Origin: Alphaproteobacteria bacterium
GTDB lineage: Bacteria; Pseudomonadota; Alphaproteobacteria; DSM-16000; Inquilinaceae
Direction of reading: 5' to 3'
NCBI GenBank assembly: GCA_028284045.1
Contig: JANQSN010000021.1
Coordinates: forward strand, 1 to 64,000
DNA: 64,000 nucleotides
Shown: positions 5,039 through 33,634 of the stretch, piece by piece
Position numbering within the stretch: the first letter of the stretch is position 1
Layout: the number at the start of each line of letters is the position of its first letter
Program-made: the position numbers and the translations under genes
The notes under the pieces: model-generated
Told to the model about the DNA's origin: nothing
Seen by the model: only the letters and a program-made list of their open reading frames with translations
Database searches by the model: none

Positions 5039-6688
5039 TTATCCTTCTGCGATCGCGACTCCGAAGGGAGGCAGGTCGACGGCATCGCGCGCGCCGGTCC
5101 AGACGATGGCCGGGGCGGGGGCGGCGGCGCTGCTCACCGGCCGCTCAAACGCCCAACGGGCGGGCTGGTTGGAGAGGTTCGCCACCACCGTCGCCCGGTC
5201 GTCGCCGGCGGTACGCTCGATCGCGAACACAGGGCCCTGCGGCGGCAGGATCCGCGCCGATCCGCCGACCAGCGCTGCCCGGCCCCGTCGCCAGGCAAGC
5301 CAGCGGCGGGTGAAGGCCAGCACACTGTCGTCATCCGCCGCCTGAGCGTCGGCGGCAAGCGGCCGGTGCGCCGGATCGACCGGTAGCCAGGGCTCGACGT
5401 CGGAAAAGCCGGCATGCGGGGCAGCCGTCTGCCATGGCATCGGTGTGCGAGCGCCGTCGCGGCCCTCATAGTCCGGCCAGAAAGCCCGCCCGAAGGGGTC
5501 CGCCAGCCGCTCGAACGGCACATGGGCCTGGGGCAGGCCCAACTCGTCGCCCTGATAGAGGCACACCGTGCCGCGCAGGCTGGTGATCAGCGCGATCAGC
5601 AGGCGGGCGAGCGCGCGGTCGTCGCCGGCGAGATGCGGCAGGGCGCCGTAGCGGGTGACTGCCCGGGTCCAGTCGTGGTTGGAGACGGCATGGGTCAGCC
5701 AGCCCTCTGGCCCCAGCTCGCGCTCGTTGCCGGCCAGGCGCTCGGCCAGCCAGGCGGCGTCGAGCTGCGGTTTGGTCAATTGGAAGGTGTAGCAACTGTG
5801 CAGCCGGCCGGGGGCGAGGTAGCGGCCGGTCGCCTCAAGGCTGTCGGCGTCGGCTACCTCGCCCAGCAGGAAGCGGTCGGGCCAGCGGTCGACATGGGCG
5901 CGCAGCCGCGCCAGCAGTGCCGGCATGTCGGGATGCGCCCGGTCGTAGAGGTGCTGCTGATAGCTGTAGGGGCTGACCCGCGCGCCGACGAAATGCTCCA
6001 GGTCTCGGTCGTCGGCCGGGGGATTGTCCCGCAAGTCCCCGTCGGCCAACAGCCGCGAGATGGCGTCGAGGCGGAAGCCGTCGACGCCGCGGTCGAGCCA
6101 GAAGCCCGCCGCCTCGAAGATCGCCCGTTCGACCGCCGGATTGTGCCAGTTCAGCGCCGGCTGGCTCGCCAGGAAATGGTGCAGATAGTATTGCCGGCGT
6201 CGTCCCTCCCAGGTCCAGGACGCGCCGCCGAAGACCGCCTGCCAGTTGTTGGGCGGCGTGCCATCCGGTTTCGGGTCGGCCCAGACATACCAGTCGGCGC
6301 GTGGGTTCGTCCGGTCCTGCCGGCTCTCGGCGAACCAGGGGTGCCGGTCGGAGCTGTGGCACAGCACCAGGTCCAGCAGCACCTTCAGGCCGCGCCGATG
6401 GGCGCCGTCGATCACCCGGTCCATGGTGGTGAGATCGCCGAAGCGCGGATCGATGTCGCAGAAATCGGCGACGTCGTAGCCGAAATCGTCGAGCGGCGAC
6501 GGAAACACCGGCGACAGCCAGATCGCATCGACCCCCAGCCCGGCGATGTGGTCGAGCCGGTCGAGCAGGCCGGTAAGATCGCCCCAGCCGTCCCCGTTCC
6601 CGTCGGCGAAGCTGAGCGGGTAGACCTGATAGAGCACGGCGCCGCGCCACCAAGCGTGCGCGTCCGCCGGCTTTCCGGTCGCCGTCAC
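5039..6688 (-). CDS. GH13 alpha-glucosidase / oligo-1,6-glucosidase-like enzyme
   Basis: 549-residue cytoplasmic glycoside hydrolase of family 13. The (beta/alpha)8 barrel motifs are intact: DLVLCHSSDRHPWF (about 106-119), GFRLDAI with nucleophile D208, LLGEV with acid/base E277, and SNHDW with transition-state D339. The HPWF after region I and overall size point to the alpha-glucosidase branch acting on maltose, isomaltose, sucrose or trehalose; the exact sugar is not readable. The start is GTG at 6688 and overlaps the stop of the agmatine deiminase gene by four bases (GTGA), so the two are translationally coupled, an odd pairing of functions. The C-terminal beta domain is complete. Confidence 0.9.
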   Translation of the reverse strand: MTATGKPADAHAWWRGAVLYQVYPLSFADGNGDGWGDLTGLLDRLDHIAGLGVDAIWLSPVFPSPLDDFGYDVADFCDIDPRFGDLTTMDRVIDGAHRRGLKVLLDLVLCHSSDRHPWFAESRQDRTNPRADWYVWADPKPDGTPPNNWQAVFGGASWTWEGRRRQYYLHHFLASQPALNWHNPAVERAIFEAAGFWLDRGVDGFRLDAISRLLADGDLRDNPPADDRDLEHFVGARVSPYSYQQHLYDRAHPDMPALLARLRAHVDRWPDRFLLGEVADADSLEATGRYLAPGRLHSCYTFQLTKPQLDAAWLAERLAGNERELGPEGWLTHAVSNHDWTRAVTRYGALPHLAGDDRALARLLIALITSLRGTVCLYQGDELGLPQAHVPFERLADPFGRAFWPDYEGRDGARTPMPWQTAAPHAGFSDVEPWLPVDPAHRPLAADAQAADDDSVLAFTRRWLAWRRGRAALVGGSARILPPQGPVFAIERTAGDDRATVVANLSNQPARWAFERPVSSAAAPAPAIVWTGARDAVDLPPFGVAIAEG

Positions 6689-7701
6689 GCGGCCGGCTGC
6701 TGCTGGGTGATGCAGTGGATCACCCCGCCACCCAGCACGATGTCGGCGGCGTCGATCTGCACGATCTGCCGGCCCTCGAACACCTCGTGCAGGACACGGA
6801 CCGCGCGATGGTCCTCCGGTGCCCGGAAGGTCGGCAGGATCACCGCGCCGTTGGCGAGGTAGAAGTTGATATAGGACAGCACCAGGCGGCGGCCGTCGGG
6901 CCCGCGCCGGCGCGCCGGGGCCGGCACGGTCACGACCTCCAGCCGGCGGCCGCGAGCATCCTCCGCCGATTTCAGGATCTCGATATTGCGCCGCAGGACC
7001 GGCGCCATCGGGTCCGTCTCGTGATGGCTGGCCAGCGCGATCACCACGCCTGGCCGGGCGAAGCAGGCGACGACATCGACATGGCCGTCGGTCTCGTCGT
7101 CCTCGTGGCCCTCAGGCAGCCAAATCACCCGCTCCACGCCGAGCAGGTCGAACAGGCGCCGGTCGACATCCGCGCGGGTCAGGCCTGGATTGCGGTTGGC
7201 GTTCAGCACCGCGGTCTCGACCACCAGCGCCGTGCCCTCGCCGTCGACATGCACCGCCCCGCCTTCCAGCACCAGGTCGCTGGTGAAGACCTGGGCGCGG
7301 GCGCGCTCGGCGACGATCCGGCCGATTTCGGCATCGTTGGCGTGGTCGGGATACTTGCCGCCATAGCCGTTGAAGCGCCAATGCACGGCGCCCAGACCGC
7401 CCTGACCGTCGATCAGGAAGCTCGGGCCGGTGTCGCGCATCCAGCTATCGTCGATGTCGTGGGCCAGCACGTCGACGCCCTTGCCCAAGAGGAGCGAGGC
7501 GTCGACCACCTCGTCATGGCGGCAGACCATGGTCACCGGCTCGAACTCGGCGACGGCGCGGGCGACGTCGGCATAGGCGGCGCGGGCGCCCTCCAGCTTG
7601 TCGCCCCACAGCCCGGTGCGGCACGGCCAAGCCATCCAGCAGCGGGTGTGCGGATGCCATTCCGCGGGCATGGCGAAGCCGGCCTGCTGCGGCGTCGTCA
7701 T
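6685..7701 (-). CDS. aguA: agmatine deiminase
   Basis: 338-residue member of the peptidyl-arginine/agmatine deiminase family, converting agmatine to N-carbamoylputrescine and ammonia on the arginine-to-putrescine route. It shows the guanidine-binding DDSWMRDTGP block (84-93), the EGG (146-148), the metal-free catalytic HEDDETDGHVD segment (199-209) and the nucleophile Cys330 in GGGVIHCITQQQP. Length and motif order match AguA. It lies 140 bases after potI on the same strand, consistent with a polyamine catabolic/uptake unit. An aguB (carbamoylputrescine amidase) is not adjacent; the next gene is a glucosidase. A small hairpin (GGTCTC-GG-GAGACC, 7801-7814) lies in the gap before it. Confidence 0.93.
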   Translation of the reverse strand: MTTPQQAGFAMPAEWHPHTRCWMAWPCRTGLWGDKLEGARAAYADVARAVAEFEPVTMVCRHDEVVDASLLLGKGVDVLAHDIDDSWMRDTGPSFLIDGQGGLGAVHWRFNGYGGKYPDHANDAEIGRIVAERARAQVFTSDLVLEGGAVHVDGEGTALVVETAVLNANRNPGLTRADVDRRLFDLLGVERVIWLPEGHEDDETDGHVDVVACFARPGVVIALASHHETDPMAPVLRRNIEILKSAEDARGRRLEVVTVPAPARRRGPDGRRLVLSYINFYLANGAVILPTFRAPEDHRAVRVLHEVFEGRQIVQIDAADIVLGGGVIHCITQQQPAA

Positions 7702-8705: not shown

Positions 8706-9715
8706 CGCGCGTCGGCCTTCTGCTGGCGCGACTGGATGTGTTGGAACGCCATGATCGGCGCGACCAGGAAGATCAGGAGCGCGATGGCCACAGCGGATGC
8801 GACGGGCCAGTCGCGGTTGTTGAAGAACTCGTTCCACAGGACGCGGCCGATCATCAGCGTGTCCGGTCCGCCCAACAGCGCGGGGATGACGAACTCGCCG
8901 ACCGCCGGGATGAACACCAGCAGCGAGCCGGCGAGGATGCCCGGCAGGCTGAGCGGCAGGGTGACCGTCAAGAACGCCTTGAACGGCCGGCAGCCGAGAT
9001 CGGCGGCGGCTTCCAGAAGTGCCGGGTCCAGCCGCTCCAGCGTCGCGTAGAGCGGCAGGATCATGAACGGCAGATAGGAGTAGGTGATCCCGACATAGAC
9101 GGCGAAGTCGGTGTGCAGGAACTGAATCGGCTGGTCGATCACGCCGAGGCCGATCAGCAGGTTGTTTAGAAGCCCGTTCTGCTTGAGGATGCCGATCCAG
9201 GCGTAGACCCGGATCAGGAACGACGTCCAGAACGGCAGGATGATCAGCATCAACAGCGGCATGCGCCAGGTCACCGGCGCTCGGGCGATGCCGTAGGCGA
9301 TCGGGTAGCCGATCAAGAGGCACAAGACCGTCGAGACCGCCGCAATCTTCAGGCTGTTGAGATAGGCGGCGGCGTAGAGGCTGTCTTGGGCGAGGAAGAG
9401 GTAATTGCCGAGATTGAGCCGGATCTCCAGATACGCGCCCTCCACCCATTCCACCAGCGGGGCATAGGGCGGTCGGGCGATCAGCGGCTCGGAGAAGCTG
9501 ATCTTCAAGACGATGGCGAACGGGATCAGGAAGAACAGCAGGAGCCACAGATAGGGCAGGGCGATCACCAGCGTGCGGCCGCTGAGGCCGAGCCGGCCGG
9601 CCAGCGCCGCCCCGGCGACCCACAGCCGGCGCAGCGGATCGAGCCCGCTGGCGGTCAAGGCCGGCGCCCCCCGGCTCAGCCGGTCGCCGAGCGGCAGGAA
9701 GCCCTTGCGGCTCAT
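8702..9715 (-). CDS. potH: putrescine ABC transporter permease PotH
   Basis: 337-residue inner-membrane permease, PotB/PotH type. A cytoplasmic N-terminus of about 50 residues precedes the first helix (LVIALPYLWLLLFFLIPFAIV), and an EAA loop (LLEAAADLGCRPFKAFLTVTLP) lies in the C-terminal third. ATG at 9715 (start of MSRKGFLPL) is chosen; the frame extends to 9805 but that extension would translate part of the hairpin region. The gene follows potG after a 157-base gap containing two strong hairpins, and overlaps potI by four bases. Confidence 0.93.
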   Translation of the reverse strand: MSRKGFLPLGDRLSRGAPALTASGLDPLRRLWVAGAALAGRLGLSGRTLVIALPYLWLLLFFLIPFAIVLKISFSEPLIARPPYAPLVEWVEGAYLEIRLNLGNYLFLAQDSLYAAAYLNSLKIAAVSTVLCLLIGYPIAYGIARAPVTWRMPLLMLIILPFWTSFLIRVYAWIGILKQNGLLNNLLIGLGVIDQPIQFLHTDFAVYVGITYSYLPFMILPLYATLERLDPALLEAAADLGCRPFKAFLTVTLPLSLPGILAGSLLVFIPAVGEFVIPALLGGPDTLMIGRVLWNEFFNNRDWPVASAVAIALLIFLVAPIMAFQHIQSRQQKADAR

Positions 9716-9741
9716 CGACGGTAGCCCGTCGATGTCCGTTT

Positions 9742-9767
9742 GAGACCGGGTCCACGGACCCGGTCTC
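9742..9767. repeat. short perfect hairpin between potG and potH
   Basis: Twelve-base arms GAGACCGGGTCC and GGACCCGGTCTC with two bases between them form a perfect palindrome. It lies directly beside the larger hairpin at 9776-9850. On the pot transcript it would fold about 27 bases before the potH start codon. Confidence 0.8.
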
Positions 9768-9775
9768 GCGGCGAC

Positions 9776-9850
9776 GCCGGCCCTCGCCCCCGCCCGGCCC
9801 CCCATTCAAGCATACTGTCGTTGGGGGGCCGGGCGGGGGCGAGGGCCGGC
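9776..9850. repeat. 29-bp perfect inverted repeat between potG and potH
   Basis: The left arm (9776-9804) and right arm (9822-9850) are perfectly complementary over 29 bases, almost all G/C, with a 17-base AT-richer loop. There is no U-run after the stem on either strand, so it is not a textbook intrinsic terminator. Within an ABC-transporter operon such stems commonly protect the upstream mRNA from 3' exonucleases or lower expression of the downstream permease genes; either role here is inference. It could also be a dispersed palindromic element. No second copy was seen in the window. Confidence 0.85.
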
Positions 9851-9872
9851 CTCGGCGGTCGCGGACAAACAC

Positions 9873-11048
9873 TCATGTCTGCAGGATCACGCCGGCGAAG
9901 GCCGGCCATGTCACATGGACGGCGTCTTCCCAGGTGATCGGCAGCTCGGTCATCCGCGTCACGTTGGGGGCGGTGACCCGGACCATGCTGCCGTCGGCCA
10001 GGCGGATCAGATAGATCGACGCGTTGCCGAGATAGGCGATCTCGTCCACCGTGCCCTGCACCGCGTTGCGCGGGTCGGCCGGCGGGTCCTTGGCGATCGC
10101 CATCTTCTCCGGCCGCACCGCGACATGGACACGCGTGCCGATGGGCACGGAGCCGGCGTGGCTGACCTCGATCTCCGTGCCGGCGGCGTCGGCGGCCACC
10201 ACGACATGGTCGGCGGCATCCTCCACCACCCGGCCGCCGAACAGGTTCACCTGGCCGATGAACTCCGCCACGAACCGGGACTGCGGATACTCGTAGATTT
10301 CCGCCGGGGTGCCGACCTGGACGATCCAGCCGGCATCCATCACGGCGATGCGCGAGGACATGGTCATCGCCTCCTCCTGGTCATGGGTGACCATGACGAA
10401 GGTGATGCCCACCTGCTCCTGGATGTTGACCAGCTCGAACTGGGTCTCCTCGCGCAGCTTGCGGTCGAGCGCCGCCAAGGGCTCGTCCAGCAGCAGCAGC
10501 TTGGGCCGCTTGACCAGGCTGCGGGCCAGCGCGACGCGCTGGCGCTGGCCGCCGGACAGTTGGTGGGGCTTGCGCTTGCGCTGGGGGGCGAGCTTGACCA
10601 GCTCCAGTGCCTCCGTCACGCGGTGACGGATCTCCGCGCCCGGCACGCGGTCCTGGTGCAGCCCGAAGGCGACGTTCTGCTCCACCGTCATATGCGGAAA
10701 CAGCGCATAGGACTGGAACATCATGTTGACCGGCCGCTCGTAGGGCGGGATCTCCGACATGTCCACGCCGTCGATATAGATGTGCCCGGCGGTCGGCTGC
10801 TCGAAGCCGGCCAGCATGCGCAACAGCGTGGTCTTGCCGCAGCCCGACCCGCCGAGCAGCGAAAACAGTTCGCCCCGGTAGATCGACAGGCTGACATCGT
10901 CGACGGCGGTGAAGGCGCCGAAGGTCTTCGACACCCCCTCGATGCGCACATAGGGCGCCTCGCCGGGGTCCTGCCAGGGCTCCAGCTTGGTCTGCCGGCG
11001 GTTCGGCTGCACCGCGCCGGAGGCCGCCGGCAGGGCCGTGTCGGTCAT
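9873..11048 (-). CDS. potG: putrescine ABC transporter ATP-binding protein PotG/PotA
   Basis: 391-residue ABC ATPase that drives polyamine import. Walker A GGSGCGKTT (66-74), Q-loop FQSYALFP (111-118), signature LSGGQRQR (164-171) and Walker B LLLLDEP (184-190) are present, with the switch His in VTHDQEEA. The C-terminal 110 residues form a TOBE-type regulatory domain, as in PotA/PotG. The N-terminal extension of about 30 residues also fits PotG. It lies 43 bases downstream of potF on the same strand. Confidence 0.94.
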   Translation of the reverse strand: MTDTALPAASGAVQPNRRQTKLEPWQDPGEAPYVRIEGVSKTFGAFTAVDDVSLSIYRGELFSLLGGSGCGKTTLLRMLAGFEQPTAGHIYIDGVDMSEIPPYERPVNMMFQSYALFPHMTVEQNVAFGLHQDRVPGAEIRHRVTEALELVKLAPQRKRKPHQLSGGQRQRVALARSLVKRPKLLLLDEPLAALDRKLREETQFELVNIQEQVGITFVMVTHDQEEAMTMSSRIAVMDAGWIVQVGTPAEIYEYPQSRFVAEFIGQVNLFGGRVVEDAADHVVVAADAAGTEIEVSHAGSVPIGTRVHVAVRPEKMAIAKDPPADPRNAVQGTVDEIAYLGNASIYLIRLADGSMVRVTAPNVTRMTELPITWEDAVHVTWPAFAGVILQT

Positions 11049-11091
11049 CGCAACCGGAGCTTCGCGCGGGCTGCGGGGGCCGGATGGGGCG

Positions 11092-12213
11092 CTACTGGCC
11101 GGTGGTGATGCGCGTCCAGGTGCGGGTGCGCTCCCGCTCGAACCGCTGGCTGACCACGCTGACGGAGAACAGCCGCTCCAACACGGCCTGCGGCGGGAAG
11201 ATGCGCGGGTCTTCGGCGACCTCCGGATCGATCAGGTCCAGCGACGCCGGAACCGCGTTGGCATAGGCGACATAGTTGGTGATGCCCGCCATGGTCGCGG
11301 GGTCGAGGACGAAGTTGATGAAGGCGTGGGCCGCCTCCGGGTTCGGCGCGTCGGCCGGGATGGCCAGGGTGTCGAACCAGACGACGGTGCCTTCCTCGGG
11401 GATCACATAGGTGATCTCGTGGCCGTTGCCGGCTTCGTCCGCGCGGGCGGCGGCCTGCAGCACGTCGCCCGTCCAGCCGATCGCCAAGCAGATGTCGCCA
11501 TTGGCCAGATCGTTGATGTATTGCGAGCTGTGGAAGTACTTCACGTAAGGGCGGACCGACATCAGCAGCGCTTCCGCCGCGGCCAGGTCTTCGCTGTCCT
11601 CGGTGTTCGGGTCGAGGCCGAGATAGTGCAGCGCCAGCGGCAGGATCTCGGTGGCGGCGTCCAGCATGGTGACGCCGCAATCCTCGAACTGGGCGACGAC
11701 CTCCGGATCGAACATCATGTCCCAGCTATTGACCGGCGCATCGGGCATGCGCTCTTCGATCATCGCTACGTTGTAGCCGAAGCCGTTGGTGCCCCATTGG
11801 TAGATCACGGCGTGCTGGTTGCCGGGATCGGCCCGCGCCACCTGTTCCATCAGCACGGGATCGAGGTTGGCGACGTTGGGGATCTGGTCGAGGTCGAGGG
11901 GCTGGTAGATGCCGGCCTCGACCTGCCGGGCCAGGAACGGCTGCGCCGTCGGTACGACGACGTCGTAGCCGGCGCTGCCGGCCAACAGCTTGGCCTCCAG
12001 GACGTCGTTGCTGTCATAGACGTCGTAGGTGACGTCGATCCCGGTGGCGGCGGTGAAGTCTTCCAGCGTGGTCTCGCCGATATAGTCCGACCAGTTGTAG
12101 ACATTGACGGTGTCCGCCGCGGCCGGGGCCCAGCCGAAACCGAGGCCGAGGGCCAGCGGCGACAGGGTGGCGAGGCGAAGCGCGGTGCGCGGCGAGAGGC
12201 GAGGGTCGGACAT
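11092..12213 (-). CDS. potF: periplasmic putrescine-binding protein PotF
   Basis: 373-residue solute-binding protein. The N-terminus has a Sec signal peptide with probable cleavage after AAA near residue 34, followed by the mature start DTVNVYNWSDYIGE, which matches PotF/PotD binding proteins. Conserved PotF stretches such as YDVYDSN, FHSSQYINDLANGDIC and AIGWTGDV carry the aromatic and acidic residues that hold the diamine. The ATG at 12213 follows a GGGAGA purine stretch; a longer frame to 12345 has no signal-peptide logic. First gene of potFGHI. The 188-base divergent gap to the MDR gene at 12402 should hold its promoter; I saw no convincing operator there. Confidence 0.94.
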   Translation of the reverse strand: MSDPRLSPRTALRLATLSPLALGLGFGWAPAAADTVNVYNWSDYIGETTLEDFTAATGIDVTYDVYDSNDVLEAKLLAGSAGYDVVVPTAQPFLARQVEAGIYQPLDLDQIPNVANLDPVLMEQVARADPGNQHAVIYQWGTNGFGYNVAMIEERMPDAPVNSWDMMFDPEVVAQFEDCGVTMLDAATEILPLALHYLGLDPNTEDSEDLAAAEALLMSVRPYVKYFHSSQYINDLANGDICLAIGWTGDVLQAAARADEAGNGHEITYVIPEEGTVVWFDTLAIPADAPNPEAAHAFINFVLDPATMAGITNYVAYANAVPASLDLIDPEVAEDPRIFPPQAVLERLFSVSVVSQRFERERTRTWTRITTGQ

Positions 12214-12401
12214 CGTCGGTCGATCTCCCAGGAAGGCCGGTCGGGACGACCGGGATCGGCGGTGGCGCTGCTGGGACGCCATCGACGGGTCAGGATCCCG
12301 CCAGCGGAGTCGCAAGACAAGCCGTAGAACGGCCCGTGGGGTCAAGAGACAATGGCCCGTGATCTCGGCGCTGTCGACAAAGGTAAGGTTGGGGGGCGGC
12401 G

Positions 12402-13445
12402 ATGACGGTTCCGCACAGGATGACGGGCGTTCAACTGGTGTCCCATGGTGGCCCCGAGGCGCTGGTGGTCAACCCGGCGCTGCGCGTGCCGACGCCCGCT
12501 CGCGGAGATGTTCTGGTCCGCGTCGGGGCGGCGGCGGTCAACAACACCGACATCAACACGCGGACGGGCTGGTATTCGAAGGGCGACGCGGACGCTGCGG
12601 ATGCCAGTTGGTCCGGCCACGCCTTGCAGTTCCCGAGGATCCAGGGGGCGGATGTCTGCGGCGCCGTGGTCGCGGTGGGGGCTGGCGTGCCGGAGAACCG
12701 AATCGGCCAGCGCGTTCTGATCGAGCCATGCTTGCGCTCAGCGGACGGCGAAGTCTTGGCGCGTCCCTGGTATCTCGGCTCGGAATGCGATGGCGGGTTC
12801 GCCGAATTCGTCCGGGTTGCCTCGGTGCATGCCTATGCCGTCGACAGCGCGTTGAGCGACGCGGCGCTGGCGTCGTTTCCCTGCTCCTACTCCACGGCGG
12901 AGAACATGCTGACCCGCGCCGCGGTGGAACCCGGGGAGACGGTTCTGGTGACCGGGGCCTCGGGCGGCGTGGGCTCTGCGGCGGTCCAGCTTGCCCGGGC
13001 GCGCGGCGCGGCGGTCGTCGCGGTCACCAGCCCGGCGAAGGCAGAGGCTCTTCGCGGGCTGGGCGCGGGCTTGACGGTCGGGCGGGATGCGAACCTCGTC
13101 GAGACGCTGGGCCGGGACAGTGTCGACGTCGTGCTGGACCTGGTCGCGGGGGCGCAATGGCCGCAGTTTCTCGACATCCTTAGACCCGGCGGCCGCTATG
13201 CCGTGTCCGGCGCGATCGGCGGGCCGCTCGTCGAACTGGATGTCAGGACGCTCTATCTGAAGGACTTGAGCTTCTTCGGCTGCACCGTCCTGCAGCCCGG
13301 GGTGTTCGGCACGCTCGTGCGATTGATCGAGCGCGGCGCGATCCGCCCGCTGGTCGCCGAAACCTGGCCGTTGACGGCCATCCATGAGGCCCAGGCCCGG
13401 TTCTTGAAGAAGGATCACATCGGCAAGATCGTCCTTAGCCCATGA
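12402..13445 (+). CDS. MDR-superfamily alcohol dehydrogenase / quinone oxidoreductase-like protein
   Basis: 347-residue medium-chain dehydrogenase/reductase. The N-terminal GroES-like domain contains NNTDINTR and GADVCGAVVAVG, and the Rossmann domain has TGASGGVGSAAVQLA (about 182-196). The N-terminal domain lacks the full set of catalytic and structural zinc cysteines of zinc ADHs, so it may be a zinc-free reductase of the quinone oxidoreductase branch; substrate unknown. NADPH preference is a family expectation only. ATG at 12402 sits after a G-rich stretch. It is divergent from potF and converges with the lipoprotein gene, 25 bases between stops. Confidence 0.82.
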   Translation: MTVPHRMTGVQLVSHGGPEALVVNPALRVPTPARGDVLVRVGAAAVNNTDINTRTGWYSKGDADAADASWSGHALQFPRIQGADVCGAVVAVGAGVPENRIGQRVLIEPCLRSADGEVLARPWYLGSECDGGFAEFVRVASVHAYAVDSALSDAALASFPCSYSTAENMLTRAAVEPGETVLVTGASGGVGSAAVQLARARGAAVVAVTSPAKAEALRGLGAGLTVGRDANLVETLGRDSVDVVLDLVAGAQWPQFLDILRPGGRYAVSGAIGGPLVELDVRTLYLKDLSFFGCTVLQPGVFGTLVRLIERGAIRPLVAETWPLTAIHEAQARFLKKDHIGKIVLSP

Positions 13446-13470: not shown

Positions 13471-14328
13471 CTAGAACCGGGCGTCGGCGACTTGCCGGAG
13501 CGCGCGCAGCGGCGGCAGGGCGGGCGGCCGCGGGATATCGCCGAGCGCGGCGACGCGGGGCGAAGCGTCGCCAAGCGTGGCGACGCGGCGCGGCGGCAGG
13601 GTCGGCGGCAGCGGGACGGCGTTTGGCGGGTCCGTGCCGTCCGCGGCCGGGTTGGCCGGTCGCCGGGGCGGCATCGGCGGGTCGATGGCCGGGGCGGTGC
13701 TGGCGGATGGCAGGGCGGCGACCGAAAGGGCCGATGCGGGCAACGGGTCGAGCGGAACCGGATCGACCGGCAGCGGGGCGGCCGCCAGGGTGACGGTTGG
13801 CGCGGCCAGCGGCAGCGGATCGGCCGCGGCGGGTCCGGCTGTCGCAACGGTGATCGGCGCGGTCGGCAATGCTGTCGACGGGGCCAGGGCGGCGACGGCG
13901 CCGGCCGGGGCATTGGCTGGCAGGACGGCCCGCCGCCCGTCGTCCGTAGCGAAGCCGCCGGTGGCCGCGACGGTCGTCGTTCCGGTGGTGGTTCGGGGCG
14001 CGGCGGCGAGAACCGCCGGGTCGGCGACCGCCCATTGGCGTTCCTCGACCTCCATGCAGATCTCTCGGTCGTCGAAAACCCGCCACAGGGCGCAGTCTTC
14101 GCCCACCACCGCCGACAAGGCATGGTCGCCGAGGGTCTTGCCCGTGGTGGCGGCGCTGACGCCGTCCGCCGCGTAGCTGACGATGGTGACCGCCAACGGA
14201 ACACCGCAGCCGGACAGCGCAACCCCGGCGACGATCAGCCCGGCGAGCCGACCCAGGGTCGGGCCGATCCTGCGGTGCCCGGGCCGTGCGCCGGCCGGAG
14301 CGTCATCGCCGGGAAGTTCTATGTTCAT
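13471..14328 (-). CDS. putative lipoprotein with Pro/Ala-rich C-terminal region
   Basis: 285 residues, no named family. After a basic N-terminus a hydrophobic run ends in a lipobox-like LSGC (Cys about 41), predicting export and lipidation. Residues about 42-100 are the only compact part, with a motif TTGKTLGDHALSAVVGEDC followed by LWRVFDDREIC and two cysteines that may pair; I have the impression this motif recurs in small alphaproteobacterial lipoproteins, which needs a search. From about 105 on it is low-complexity Ala/Pro/Thr/Val sequence ending in a near-repeat (RVATLGDASP, RVAALGDIP). Such a tail may span the periplasm or bind peptidoglycan (inference). Confidence 0.6.
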   Translation of the reverse strand: MNIELPGDDAPAGARPGHRRIGPTLGRLAGLIVAGVALSGCGVPLAVTIVSYAADGVSAATTGKTLGDHALSAVVGEDCALWRVFDDREICMEVEERQWAVADPAVLAAAPRTTTGTTTVAATGGFATDDGRRAVLPANAPAGAVAALAPSTALPTAPITVATAGPAAADPLPLAAPTVTLAAAPLPVDPVPLDPLPASALSVAALPSASTAPAIDPPMPPRRPANPAADGTDPPNAVPLPPTLPPRRVATLGDASPRVAALGDIPRPPALPPLRALRQVADARF

Positions 14329-14729
14329 GTTTTGATCCAGTCAGCACAGCATTATTTACCCAATATCTCAAATATTGTTGGGAAAAGAAATCGCGATATA
14401 CGCCGAGAGGAGCAATTTTTTTCTTACGTGTGGCGTTCAGGGTGTCGATTGCCAAAGAATGGTCGGGATTTCGTACGGCGAAGCGCTTCAGCCGGCGCTG
14501 AGGAGGATCGGTCAACTGTCGAAGAATGATCAGAATTCCCCCCCATCGACCGGATCGGCAGCTATATTTGGTGTTCCTTGCCGGACAAGGCTCCCCATCC
14601 GGGCCGATCGGGAGGGTGGGTTGACGGTGGCGAGGTGGGTGTCTATTATTAGAACAAAATAGGAACATAGGGCGTCGGGCCGGCTCTCCCGGTGCGGTTC
14701 CGCTTCCCTCGCTTCATCACCGGCATGCC
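14329..14729. other. AT-rich intergenic region between lipoprotein gene and imuA
   Basis: About 400 bases with no convincing gene, markedly richer in A/T than the flanks between roughly 14340 and 14670. It must hold the divergent promoters of the lipoprotein gene and imuA. It contains an inverted repeat (CAATAT-CTCAA-ATATTG, 14361-14377), a seven-T run near 14415, and the LexA box at 14652-14666. Short open frames here lack homology I recognise and were left out. Confidence 0.7.
14652..14666. promoter_or_regulatory. alphaproteobacterial LexA (SOS) box
   Basis: GAAC-AAAATAG-GAAC is an exact match to the direct-repeat LexA site of alphaproteobacteria, GAAC-N7-GAAC (GTTC-N7-GTTC on the other strand). 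It lies 63 bases upstream of the imuA start, a normal position for SOS control of the imuA-imuB-dnaE2 mutagenesis genes. Binding is inferred from the sequence. Confidence 0.88.
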
Positions 14730-15617
14730 ATGACCGTTTCCCAGCCCGCCGATCGGCCCGAGCCCGCGGGCGGTGACTCCCCCGGCCGCCGCCGGACCGC
14801 CGATCCGATCGCGCTGGGCCGGCTGAAGGCCCGTCTGCGCCAACTCGACGGTGCCGATCTGCGGCGCCGCTCGGCGGTGCCGCTGGGCGTGCCGGCGATC
14901 GATCGGGCGTTGCCCGGCGGCGGGCTGGCCGGGGCGGCGCTGCACGAGATCCTGGCGGCGGACGGCGATCCAGCGGCTGACGGCTTCGTTGCCGTCTGCC
15001 TCGCCCGGCTGGCGGCGGTCCGGTCCCGGCCGGTGCTCTGGGTCGCCGGGACGCCGGGGCCGTATCCGCCGGGGCTGGCCGCCTTCGGGCTCGATCCGGC
15101 GCGGCTGATCCTGGTGGCTGCGCCGCGCCCGGCGGAACGGCTCTGGGTGATGGAGCAGGCGGTGCGCGCCGCCGGCGACGGGTCGGTGCTGGCGGCGGTC
15201 GCCGGGGCGGTCGACGGGATCGATGCGGTCGCCAGCCGGCGGCTGCATCTGGCGGCGGAGGCCGGCGGAGTCCCCCTTCTGGTGCGGCGGGCGGGCCGGT
15301 CGGCGGCGGGCGCCGGCAGCGTCGCGGTGACCCGCTGGCAGGTCGCCAGCCTGCCGGGCATTCCGCTCTGCCTGGACGACGGCCGGGCGGAGCCGGGGGT
15401 GCCGCCGGCGCGCTGGCGGCTCGACCTCCTGCGCTGCCGTGGCGGCCGGCCGGCCGGCTGGATCGTCGACTGGGCGGGGCGCGGGATCGGGTTGGTGGCA
15501 GCCGACCCCTTCGAGACCGATATGGGCGGCCTCGAACAGTGCAGGCCAAGCCTCTCGCCAGCCCTTACAAGCCGGGCTAAGGTGCCGGTTTGCGGCGCGG
15601 GTGTAGCTCAATGGTAG
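14730..15617 (+). CDS. imuA: ImuA-like SOS mutagenesis protein, orphan
   Basis: 295-residue frame of the ImuA family, RecA-related proteins that work with ImuB and DnaE2 in error-prone translesion synthesis. Recognisable stretches are GVPAIDRALPGGGLAGAALHEI (about 53-74), LWVAGTPGPYPPGLAAFGLDPARL, SRRLHLAAEAGGVPLLVRRAG and RWRLDLLRCRGGRPAGWIVDW. imuB and dnaE2, which normally follow, are absent: the next gene is tRNA-Gly. The frame has no stop before that tRNA and its last seven codons lie inside it, so the true C-terminus after about residue 265 may have been lost or replaced. A perfect LexA box stands upstream. It could be a remnant of an imu operon or act with imuB/dnaE2 elsewhere. Confidence 0.8.
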   Translation: MTVSQPADRPEPAGGDSPGRRRTADPIALGRLKARLRQLDGADLRRRSAVPLGVPAIDRALPGGGLAGAALHEILAADGDPAADGFVAVCLARLAAVRSRPVLWVAGTPGPYPPGLAAFGLDPARLILVAAPRPAERLWVMEQAVRAAGDGSVLAAVAGAVDGIDAVASRRLHLAAEAGGVPLLVRRAGRSAAGAGSVAVTRWQVASLPGIPLCLDDGRAEPGVPPARWRLDLLRCRGGRPAGWIVDWAGRGIGLVAADPFETDMGGLEQCRPSLSPALTSRAKVPVCGAGVAQW

Positions 15618-15670
15618 AGCAGTAGCCTTCCAAGCTACCTACGTGGGTTCGATTCCCATCACCCGCTCCA
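15597..15670 (+). tRNA. tRNA-Gly (anticodon TCC)
   Basis: Complete cloverleaf of 74 bases with encoded CCA: acceptor arms GCGGGTG and CACCCGC pair fully, the D arm GCTC-GAGC, the anticodon stem TAGCC/GGCTA-type with loop CTTCCAA (anticodon TCC), and a T arm with GTTCGATTC. Its first 21 bases overlap the end of the imuA frame. In many proteobacteria a glycine tRNA stands near tuf-tRNA-Trp-secE, which fits the next genes. A TAAGGT -10-like hexamer lies at 15578-15583, but no good -35 is seen. Confidence 0.97.
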
Positions 15671-16029
15671 CGGACGAGGCGCCGATTTCCCCCGCGAAGG
15701 CTGGCGATCCGGCCCTTGCAATCGAGCCGCGCAGTCGCTAGAAGAGCGGTTCCGCGACCGGTCGCCGGTGCGCGGACAATATTGTATTGCGGGTTGACAG
15801 GCTCACGCTTGCCGGCCGAGGCGCGGCGGCCGACGGGTCGCCGCACCGGCACGACCGATCAAGCGACGGGACCCGGTGTGACCGGACCGATCCATGTCGG
15901 CGACGGCGCTCTAAAGGTCACGCATACGGGGCCGAAGGATCCGGGGCCGGACACATTCCTGGACGGTCGCCCAGATGAGGTCGCTGCCAAGCGGGGCCGT
16001 CCCCGGTGGGCGCCGGCCGCACGAGCGGA
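15671..16029. other. intergenic region between tRNA-Gly and tRNA-Trp
   Basis: 359 bases without a gene. In many related genomes a tuf copy lies at this position; no part of EF-Tu is readable here. The region holds a probable promoter at 15716-15744 and an isolated TTGACA at 15794-15799 with no good -10 after it. The rest shows nothing recognisable. Confidence 0.6.
15716..15744 (+). promoter_or_regulatory. probable housekeeping sigma promoter for tRNA-Trp-secE-nusG
   Basis: TTGCAA, 17 bases, TAGAAG. The -35 matches the consensus at five of six and the -10 at four of six with ideal spacing. It lies about 285 bases before tRNA-Trp. It is the best promoter candidate in the gap but has not been tested against alternatives. 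Confidence 0.45.
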
Positions 16030-16105
16030 AGGAGTGTAGCTCAATTGGTAGAGCACCGGTCTCCAAAACCGGGGGCTGGGGGTTCGAGCCCCTCCACTCC
16101 TGCCA
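16030..16105 (+). tRNA. tRNA-Trp (anticodon CCA)
   Basis: 76-base cloverleaf with encoded CCA. Acceptor arms AGGAGTG and CACTCCT pair, the anticodon loop is CTCCAAA with anticodon CCA, and the T arm GGGGGTTCGAGCCCCT is strong. tRNA-Trp immediately before secE-nusG is a conserved proteobacterial arrangement. Confidence 0.97.
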
Positions 16106-16319
16106 GCGGCACTGGTCCCACCAGCGGCACTTGGTGGACCGCTGGTCGGCGCGTCGTCCTCCGGTAGGGCGGGCGTGCCCTTGCCGGCGGGTGAGCCGGC
16201 GGCAGACTTAAGGATCGGGTTCGGCGGATGCGGCACGGCACCGCCCCGATTGAACCGCCCGGATCGACGGCCCGATGGGCCGCTTGCCGGGCCTTCCAGT
16301 GAAAGAGTGAACAGGGGCG

Positions 16320-16517
16320 ATGGCAAAGACCGGCCCGGTCCAATTCTACCGCCAAGTGCGTCAGGAGATCGCCAAGGTCACATGGCCGTCCCGCAAGGAG
16401 ACGGGGGTGACCACGATCATGGTGTTCATCTTCGTCGTGTTGATGGCCATCTTCTTCCTGATCGTCGACCAGATCATCGGCTGGGTGGTTCGTCTGATCC
16501 TCGGGCTTGGGGGGTAA
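16320..16517 (+). CDS. secE: preprotein translocase subunit SecE
   Basis: 65-residue single-span SecE, the essential small subunit of the SecYEG channel. It has the conserved amphipathic cytoplasmic segment QVRQEIAKVTWPSRKET (12-28) followed by one membrane helix (about 33-55). This is the short form typical of alphaproteobacteria, compared with three spans in E. coli. ATG at 16320 follows AGGGGCG. nusG begins nine bases after its stop. Between tRNA-Trp and secE there are 214 bases in which I see no gene. Confidence 0.96.
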   Translation: MAKTGPVQFYRQVRQEIAKVTWPSRKETGVTTIMVFIFVVLMAIFFLIVDQIIGWVVRLILGLGG

Positions 16518-32443: not shown

Positions 32444-33634
32444 ATGGCGAAGGCGAAGTTCGAGCGGAGCAAGCCGCACTGCAATATCGGCACGATCGGG
32501 CACGTCGATCACGGCAAGACGTCGTTGACCGCCGCGATCACCAAGATCCTGGCCGAGGCCGGCGGCGCGCAGTACACCGCCTACGACCAGATCGACAAGG
32601 CGCCGGAGGAGAAGGCGCGCGGCATCACGATCTCGACCGCGCATGTCGAGTATGAGACCAGCAACCGGCACTATGCCCATGTCGACTGCCCGGGCCATGC
32701 CGACTATGTGAAGAACATGATCACCGGCGCGGCGCAGATGGACGGGGCCATCCTGGTCGTCTCCGCCGCCGACGGTCCGATGCCGCAGACCCGCGAGCAC
32801 ATCCTGCTCGCCCGCCAGGTCGGCGTGCCGGCGATCGTGGTCTACCTGAACAAGTGCGATCAGGTGGACGACGAGGAGCTCTTGGAGCTGGTGGAGCTGG
32901 AGGTGCGTGAGCTTCTGTCCAGCTACGACTTCCCCGGCGACGATATTCCGATCGTCAAGGGCTCCGCGCTGGTGGCGCTGGAGGAGGGCGAGGCCAAGCT
33001 TGGCAAGGACAGTGTGCTGGCGCTGATGGATGCGGTCGACAGCTATGTCCCGCAGCCGGAGCGGCCGAAGGACCTGCCCTTCCTGATGCCGATCGAGGAC
33101 GTGTTCTCGATCTCCGGGCGCGGCACCGTGGTGACCGGCCGGATCGAGCGGGGCATCCTCAAGGTCGGTGACGAGGTGGAGATCATCGGCATCCGCCCGA
33201 CCACCAAGACCACCTGCACCGGCGTGGAGATGTTCCGCAAGCTGCTCGACCAGGGCGAGGCGGGCGACAACATCGGCGCGCTGCTGCGCGGCACCAAGCG
33301 CGACGACGTGCAGCGCGGCCAGGTGCTGGCGAAGCCGGGGTCGATCACCCCGCACACCAAGTTCACCGCGGAAGCCTACATCCTGACCAAGGACGAAGGC
33401 GGGCGGCACACGCCGTTCTTCACCAACTACCGGCCGCAGTTCTACTTCCGGACCACCGACGTGACCGGTGTCGTGGAGCTGCCCGACGGCACGGAGATGG
33501 TGATGCCGGGCGACAACACCCGGATGACCGTCACGCTGATCGCGCCGATCGCCATGGACGAAGGCTTACGCTTCGCCATCCGCGAAGGCGGCCGCACGGT
33601 CGGCGCGGGCGTCGTCGCCGGCATCATCGAGTAG
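32444..33634 (+). CDS. tuf: elongation factor Tu
   Basis: 396-residue GTPase delivering aminoacyl-tRNA to the ribosome. Motifs [11 protein letters not shown] (19-29 region), [32 protein letters not shown], and complete domains 2 and 3. Kirromycin-relevant residues look ordinary. This is the only tuf in the window; the copy often present before tRNA-Trp is missing. A strong hairpin follows at 33656-33687. Confidence 0.98.

Follow-up and report, generated by a model that had tools for sequence, protein, structure and literature searches.

A predicted split ImuA/ImuB-DnaE2 mutasome whose imuA gene is joined to the 5' end of tRNA-Gly

In the window, by which we mean the whole stretch of 64,000 nucleotides that was analysed, a lone imuA gene under a LexA box reads directly into a gene for tRNA-Gly, and the question raised by this locus is whether such a gene is the leftover of a deleted cassette or a working part of the SOS response. 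ImuA, ImuB and DnaE2 act together in SOS translesion synthesis in Caulobacter. A review (PMC3901139) supports this role of the Caulobacter proteins and has nearly every configuration of imuA, imuB and dnaE2 on record, including each gene alone with an SOS box of its own. Here, we argue that the imuA of the window is very probably a working SOS gene of a split mutasome and that a rearrangement in this lineage joined it to the 5' end of tRNA-Gly.

The imuA open frame runs from an ATG to a TAG on the forward strand (14730..15617, 295 codons). Its product matches the NCBIfam family NF033429 (translesion synthesis-associated) with an E-value of 3.8e-21 over model positions 11-163 of 181; the score of 75.8 bits lies under the curated cut-off of 150, as does that of the ImuA of the family genome G004 (82.5 bits), which is encoded beside imuB. 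Identity to this G004 protein is 59% (residues 27-259) and to the G012 ImuA, likewise encoded beside imuB, 58%; a Pfam scan of the product gave no match. The Walker A motif is absent, there being by eye no GK pair in the 295 residues, and in this the protein resembles a proteobacterial ImuA1 group described in PMC12926913 as being without the motif. The sole sigma-70-like match on either strand of 14560-16340 is a near-consensus promoter, TTGACG-17-TATTAT, on the forward strand at 14621..14649 (50 shuffles gave a mean of 0.0, sd 0.1), and directly after it, adjoining its -10 element, lies an exact LexA box, GAACAAAATAGGAAC (14652..14666, forward strand). Across the 4.32 Mb genome the pattern GAACNWWNNNNGAAC has 16 matches and its reversed control 5, and this box is the only one of the genome-wide matches that falls in the window. 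Fifteen bases identical to GAACAAAATAGGAAC are also found 5' of imuA in genome G017 (locus L015), and a gene for LexA itself, matched by its DNA-binding domain, is present on contig C23. The perfect LexA box and the SOS control of imuA proposed in the initial annotation of this DNA are thus borne out as sequence signs: the frame is ImuA-like, and its predicted LexA site and promoter are signs of SOS control.

It had also been observed correctly that the frame has no stop before tRNA-Gly and ends seven codons inside it, as the TAG (15615-15617) is the seventh codon within the tRNA-Gly(TCC) gene (15597..15670 on the forward strand by ARAGORN, 15597-15667 by Rfam). The truncation of ImuA that was read into this is ruled out by an alignment of 10 ImuA proteins together with codon statistics, which place the natural end near residues 248-270. 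In the alignment, the nearly invariant columns stop at residue 248 and natural C-termini vary beyond it; the conserved region is complete here, and the ends of homologues fall at a similar position. Among 24 matches to the ImuA of relatives, some of which end early where a contig ends, 23 end by residue 262 and only that of G025 (37% identical) reaches 290. GC3 is 0.91 in codons 1-259 and 0.55 in codons 276-295, and the codon log-likelihood, with a mean of +0.32, drops to about -1.0 per codon in the tail, the score being clearly negative past about codon 270 (codons 1-15 are slightly negative as well). As no part of the conserved region is lacking and the coding signal ceases near codon 270, the stretch of about codons 271-295 (15540..15614, forward strand), which lies outside conserved ImuA, is taken to be a read-through tail. 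By these signs ImuA is complete, and its last ~25 codons consist of non-coding and tRNA sequence that the frame has captured. The predicted fold of tail plus tRNA is barely stabler than shuffles (z -1.77).

That imuB and dnaE2 are missing, as initially annotated, holds locally, since neither was found at the imuA locus, but not for the genome: a search for the two located both, intact and adjoining each other, on contig C14, while imuA lies on C1. The imuB product has IMS and IMS_C domains, that of dnaE2 matches NF004225 with 1437 bits against a cut-off of 939, and a LexA box, GTTCCATATATGTTC, stands before imuB at C14:148094, with the in-frame imuB ATG 2 nt after the box. Loss of imuB and dnaE2 is ruled out by this intact pair, and the proposal that the rest of the cassette had been removed is abandoned with it. 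With LexA boxes at both loci and a LexA gene present, the genome is predicted to encode a mutasome split into imuA and imuB-dnaE2. The initial annotation had instead seen in imuA an SOS-induced remnant of a cassette otherwise removed. The corresponding rival reading, of a truncated, non-functional and decaying leftover, is one to which the gene lends itself by standing alone at the locus without a stop codon of its own. It is made very improbable by the intact imuB and dnaE2 elsewhere, by a frame that is uninterrupted over 295 codons and strongly GC3-biased up to about codon 270, by the intact promoter and LexA box and by the presence of the conserved C-terminal region. As members of a split mutasome, ImuA, ImuB and DnaE2 most likely work jointly in this bacterium, with LexA co-ordinating the two loci.

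An imuA match was obtained in 14 of 17 family genomes. With G001, G002, G006 and G010 set aside, as their contigs end within 340 nt of the imuA match, imuB adjoins imuA in eight of the ten genomes with readable sequence after imuA (G003, G004, G005, G007, G011, G012, G013 and G016); the other two are the genome studied here (G000) and G008, where imuA is also apart from imuB-dnaE2. G004 and G012, the closest examined relatives by ImuA identity, have imuA and imuB adjacent and on the same contig as a PotD-like gene; the contig of G012 matches ImuB residues 5-90, after which no more than about 110 nt of other sequence follow before its end. Their dnaE2 is found on a different contig, where the 1.5 kb ahead of the gene contain no imuB (loci L049 and L194 in G004, L050 and L193 in G012), and judging from these contigs their cassette is broken at the other joint, imuA and imuB being together and dnaE2 apart. 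The imuB of both carries two LexA boxes of its own despite the adjacent imuA, so that loss of the link to imuA need not cost SOS control. A wider comparison used named imuA loci, the best 80 of 536 matches of an ImuA alignment to genome contigs, with best-segment identities of 36-49%, from which near relatives of the window may be missing. Directly downstream of imuA, imuB was found in 60 of these best 80 loci, in 51 of the 60 with dnaE2 too; the remaining 20 include three contig ends and three loci (L123, L142, L189) with an imuB match nearby, outside the distance rule. Several Azospirillum loci among the same best 80 of 536 (L112, L115, L124, L132, L139 and L169) show no imuB directly downstream within the available flank, which suggests that separation of imuA is recurrent in the class.

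How imuA came to abut a tRNA gene can be approached from its neighbours on either side. Two synteny markers lie on the imuA side, both on the reverse strand. The first, at 11092..12345, is PotD-like, its product being presumably a periplasmic polyamine-binding protein; it lies 2.4 kb from imuA here and has counterparts in the imuA locus of G004 (78% identity) and of G012 (74%), in both at a distance of 5-6 kb, with further genes intervening. The second is the neighbour ORF at 13471..14328, whose product we take to be lipoprotein-like; scanning it against Pfam and NCBIfam gave no match, a 50% match to its residues 20-93 lies on the imuA contig of G012, and in G004 a resembling ORF was seen by eye where tblastn gives no match at 1e-5. 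Between the two markers, a tRNA-Ser called by ARAGORN at 13230-13324 is probably false, lying inside a dehydrogenase ORF (12402-13445) and being absent from the Infernal lists.

The other side of the junction is the conserved one, with tRNA-Trp (16030..16105, forward strand) followed by secE-nusG. In nine family genomes (G002, G003, G005, G008, G011, G012, G013, G014 and G016) tRNA-Tyr and tRNA-Gly(TCC) are 50-90 bp apart, and tuf adjoins tRNA-Gly in 9/9 of them. Set against the tRNA-Tyr-tRNA-Gly-tuf-tRNA-Trp-secE-nusG cluster of G008, relative to which G002 and G011 have some 3-4 kb extra between tuf and tRNA-Trp, the window has tRNA-Gly(TCC), tRNA-Trp, secE and nusG in the same order but differs in having tRNA-Tyr with its promoter on a separate contig, no tuf between the Gly and Trp genes (15670-16030) and imuA upstream. 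One tuf is found in the window at 32444. The tRNA-Tyr gene of this genome is on contig C42 (L191, 5453-5538) with a promoter, TTGACA...TACCATAG, resembling that of G012, and it abuts a serine-recombinase gene, the frame of which extends into it in antisense. Features of C42 at 5471-7542 and 9696-11438 have the appearance of an integrative element, with two serine recombinase genes and, about 4 kb on, a T4SS coupling-protein gene. Insertion of this element may have parted tRNA-Tyr from tRNA-Gly. The two tRNA genes are also apart in G010 (3.6 kb, with no obvious mobile element in the gap by eye in the ORF list), and the available flank of tRNA-Gly in G001 contains no tRNA-Tyr; the pair thus appears to break repeatedly, and its break is not necessarily of the same age as the imuA junction. 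In G004 no TCC tRNA-Gly gene was seen, only a CCC gene and a fragment. A search of the imuA tail for remnants of a Tyr-Gly spacer gave short matches at chance level only.

Relative to the closest examined relatives, the imuA/tRNA-Gly joint is a rearrangement breakpoint, in agreement with the initial suggestion of a recombination junction at the tRNA 5' end. Comparison of gene orders indicates that it was made by rearrangement, and it is known from one draft assembly of 63 contigs, its sole source, with no exact reciprocal junction found. We propose that a chromosomal rearrangement broke the ancestral imuA-imuB just after imuA as well as the ancestral tRNA-Tyr/tRNA-Gly pair, and that imuA was thereby joined to the 5' end of tRNA-Gly with loss of its original stop. 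The alternative that imuA and tRNA-Gly were wrongly joined in assembly, for example through the similar tRNA-Gly(CCC), draws on the fact that C6 and C21 each have tRNA-Gly(CCC) at an end, so that tRNA-Gly sequence does break this assembly, and on the single assembly behind the junction. The TCC and CCC genes, however, differ at base 15 and share short identical runs only, the imuA side retains an ancestral neighbour and the tRNA side tRNA-Trp-secE-nusG, and tRNA-Tyr has, independently, another partner on C42, as expected if Tyr and Gly really broke apart. We therefore give an assembly artefact a very slight probability. On C6, tRNA-Gly(CCC) occupies C6:25-99, and an incomplete copy that corresponds to positions 30-74 of tRNA-Gly(TCC) at 87% lies 17.8 kb on, at C6:17816-17862; this suggests that an element integrated at tRNA-Gly(CCC), where both C6 and C21 end. 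Of the genome's 41 tRNA records, two (CCC, where contig ends overlap) seem to represent a single gene. No TCC gene besides tRNA-Gly(TCC) is among the 41, and a gap in the draft could hide another copy.

The junction with the tRNA has no counterpart among the imuA loci compared. No tRNA lies within 400 nt downstream of imuA in 97 other loci, these being all with 400 nt or more of sequence after the match (20 of 24 from relatives and 77 of the best 80 of 536; seven shorter ones were left out, and two of the relatives' loci are from one genome). ARAGORN found no tRNA in the 24 relatives' imuA loci with flanks of up to 1.5 kb, none was present in ten longer loci of ten family genomes, and no same-strand tRNA occurs within 4.9 kb downstream in the best 80 of 536 named loci, some of whose contigs end sooner. 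An ancestral imuA-tRNA arrangement shared with relatives was not found in any of those examined. The dispersed but normal arrangement that the initial annotation had allowed for is hence seen in one half, a complete imuB-dnaE2 elsewhere, but not in the other, as no examined relative has the imuA-tRNA-Gly junction. Open frames that enter a tRNA are not in themselves rare in a genome as GC-rich as this one: 11 of 39 tRNAs tested, that of imuA included, are entered by one of at least 220 codons. The ten other frames gave no Pfam match (nor did imuA) and no NCBIfam match at E 0.001, and imuA is the only recognised gene among the 11. Among the papers listed by literature searches on imuA/imuB/dnaE2 cassettes, their split forms and stop codons in tRNA genes, no title or visible abstract opening describes an imuA-tRNA junction, and a search for LexA read-through into tRNA found no literature. 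The split mutasome is already in print, and the junction with a tRNA gene is the new feature.

The junction raises the further question of how tRNA-Gly(TCC) is now transcribed. A match of at least 8/12 to a promoter is present within 200 bp of tRNA-Tyr in 12/12 family genomes scored, this one included (five of the 12 belong to one genus, and the promoter in G010 lies 164 bp upstream), while the Tyr-Gly spacers, five of nine of which were scored, reach 5-8/12 at best; of 2000 random sites, 227 score 8 or more and 1235 score 7 or more. By these scores, the Tyr promoter probably served tRNA-Gly as well, a likely ancestral promoter from which tRNA-Gly has probably been cut off here. Read-through of imuA transcription into the tRNA is plausible on the evidence of the sequence, and with it SOS-coupled tRNA transcription is possible, as no terminator-like site and no strong promoter were found between the two genes in scans of which that for terminators has low power (shuffle mean 0.6). 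A stronger form, in which the severed tRNA-Gly(UCC) is transcribed largely from the LexA-controlled imuA promoter and tRNA maturation competes with ImuA synthesis for the transcript, we consider doubtful. Were it true, the supply of an important tRNA would rise with DNA damage, and an RNase P cut ahead of the imuA stop would leave a non-stop imuA message, so that processing would compete with ImuA synthesis.

The chances appear evenly balanced that tRNA-Gly instead has a promoter of its own and is insulated, the overlap with imuA being a neutral accident with no transcriptional coupling. A candidate, TCGCCA-17-TAAGGT (15555..15583, forward strand), is in a good position for a tRNA promoter, 13 nt before the gene; three other tRNAs likewise have TAAGGT or TAGGGT as their best -10 match, and a tRNA of such importance should need constitutive transcription. 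Its 7/12 match is nevertheless at the level of the random sites above, the scan showed no terminator-like site between the tRNA and imuA, and in relatives only a 50-90 bp spacer separates tRNA-Gly from the tRNA-Tyr ahead of it, with the spacer scores given above. Sixteen of 38 other tRNAs tested do no better in their best promoter match, and the lack of a good match for tRNA-Gly therefore proves little. An independent weak promoter is in our view likelier than dependence on LexA, and it is compatible with the split-mutasome explanation in all but the read-through step.

In the split mutasome proposed here, DNA damage would inactivate LexA and free the promoter at 14621-14649 so that ImuA is made, while imuB, from behind its own LexA box, and dnaE2 would be expressed from C14; the three proteins would then assemble and allow copying past lesions. 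Translation of imuA would run about 25 codons on and end at the TAG in the tRNA D-arm, with a tail that is presumably harmless. Transcripts of imuA would probably read into tRNA-Gly and be cut by RNase P. With the imuA stop beyond this cut, an uncut transcript would yield the ImuA of 295 residues and a cut one a non-stop message. The locus may in this way be regarded as a natural experiment, in which a probably needed and apparently single-copy tRNA has come to lie behind an SOS promoter with the stop codon of a protein inside it, and the junction would test how tRNA supply, translation termination and RNase P processing stay compatible on one transcript.

Among known systems, the nearest is the imuA-imuB-dnaE2 (imuABC) SOS cassette, its split forms included, with which this genome shares the same three genes and LexA boxes before imuA and imuB. 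The three are not in one operon here, an arrangement that is typical of the cassette without being required, and as a split mutasome the genome adds one more case to a known arrangement; it departs from the cassette in that its lone imuA abuts a tRNA gene and has its stop codon inside it. Protein genes whose transcript continues into a downstream tRNA and is processed by RNase P offer the second comparison. Like these, the locus has a coding frame and, directly after it and in the same orientation, a tRNA, no terminator being seen between them, and what sets it apart is the stop codon within the tRNA together with the LexA box at the upstream promoter.
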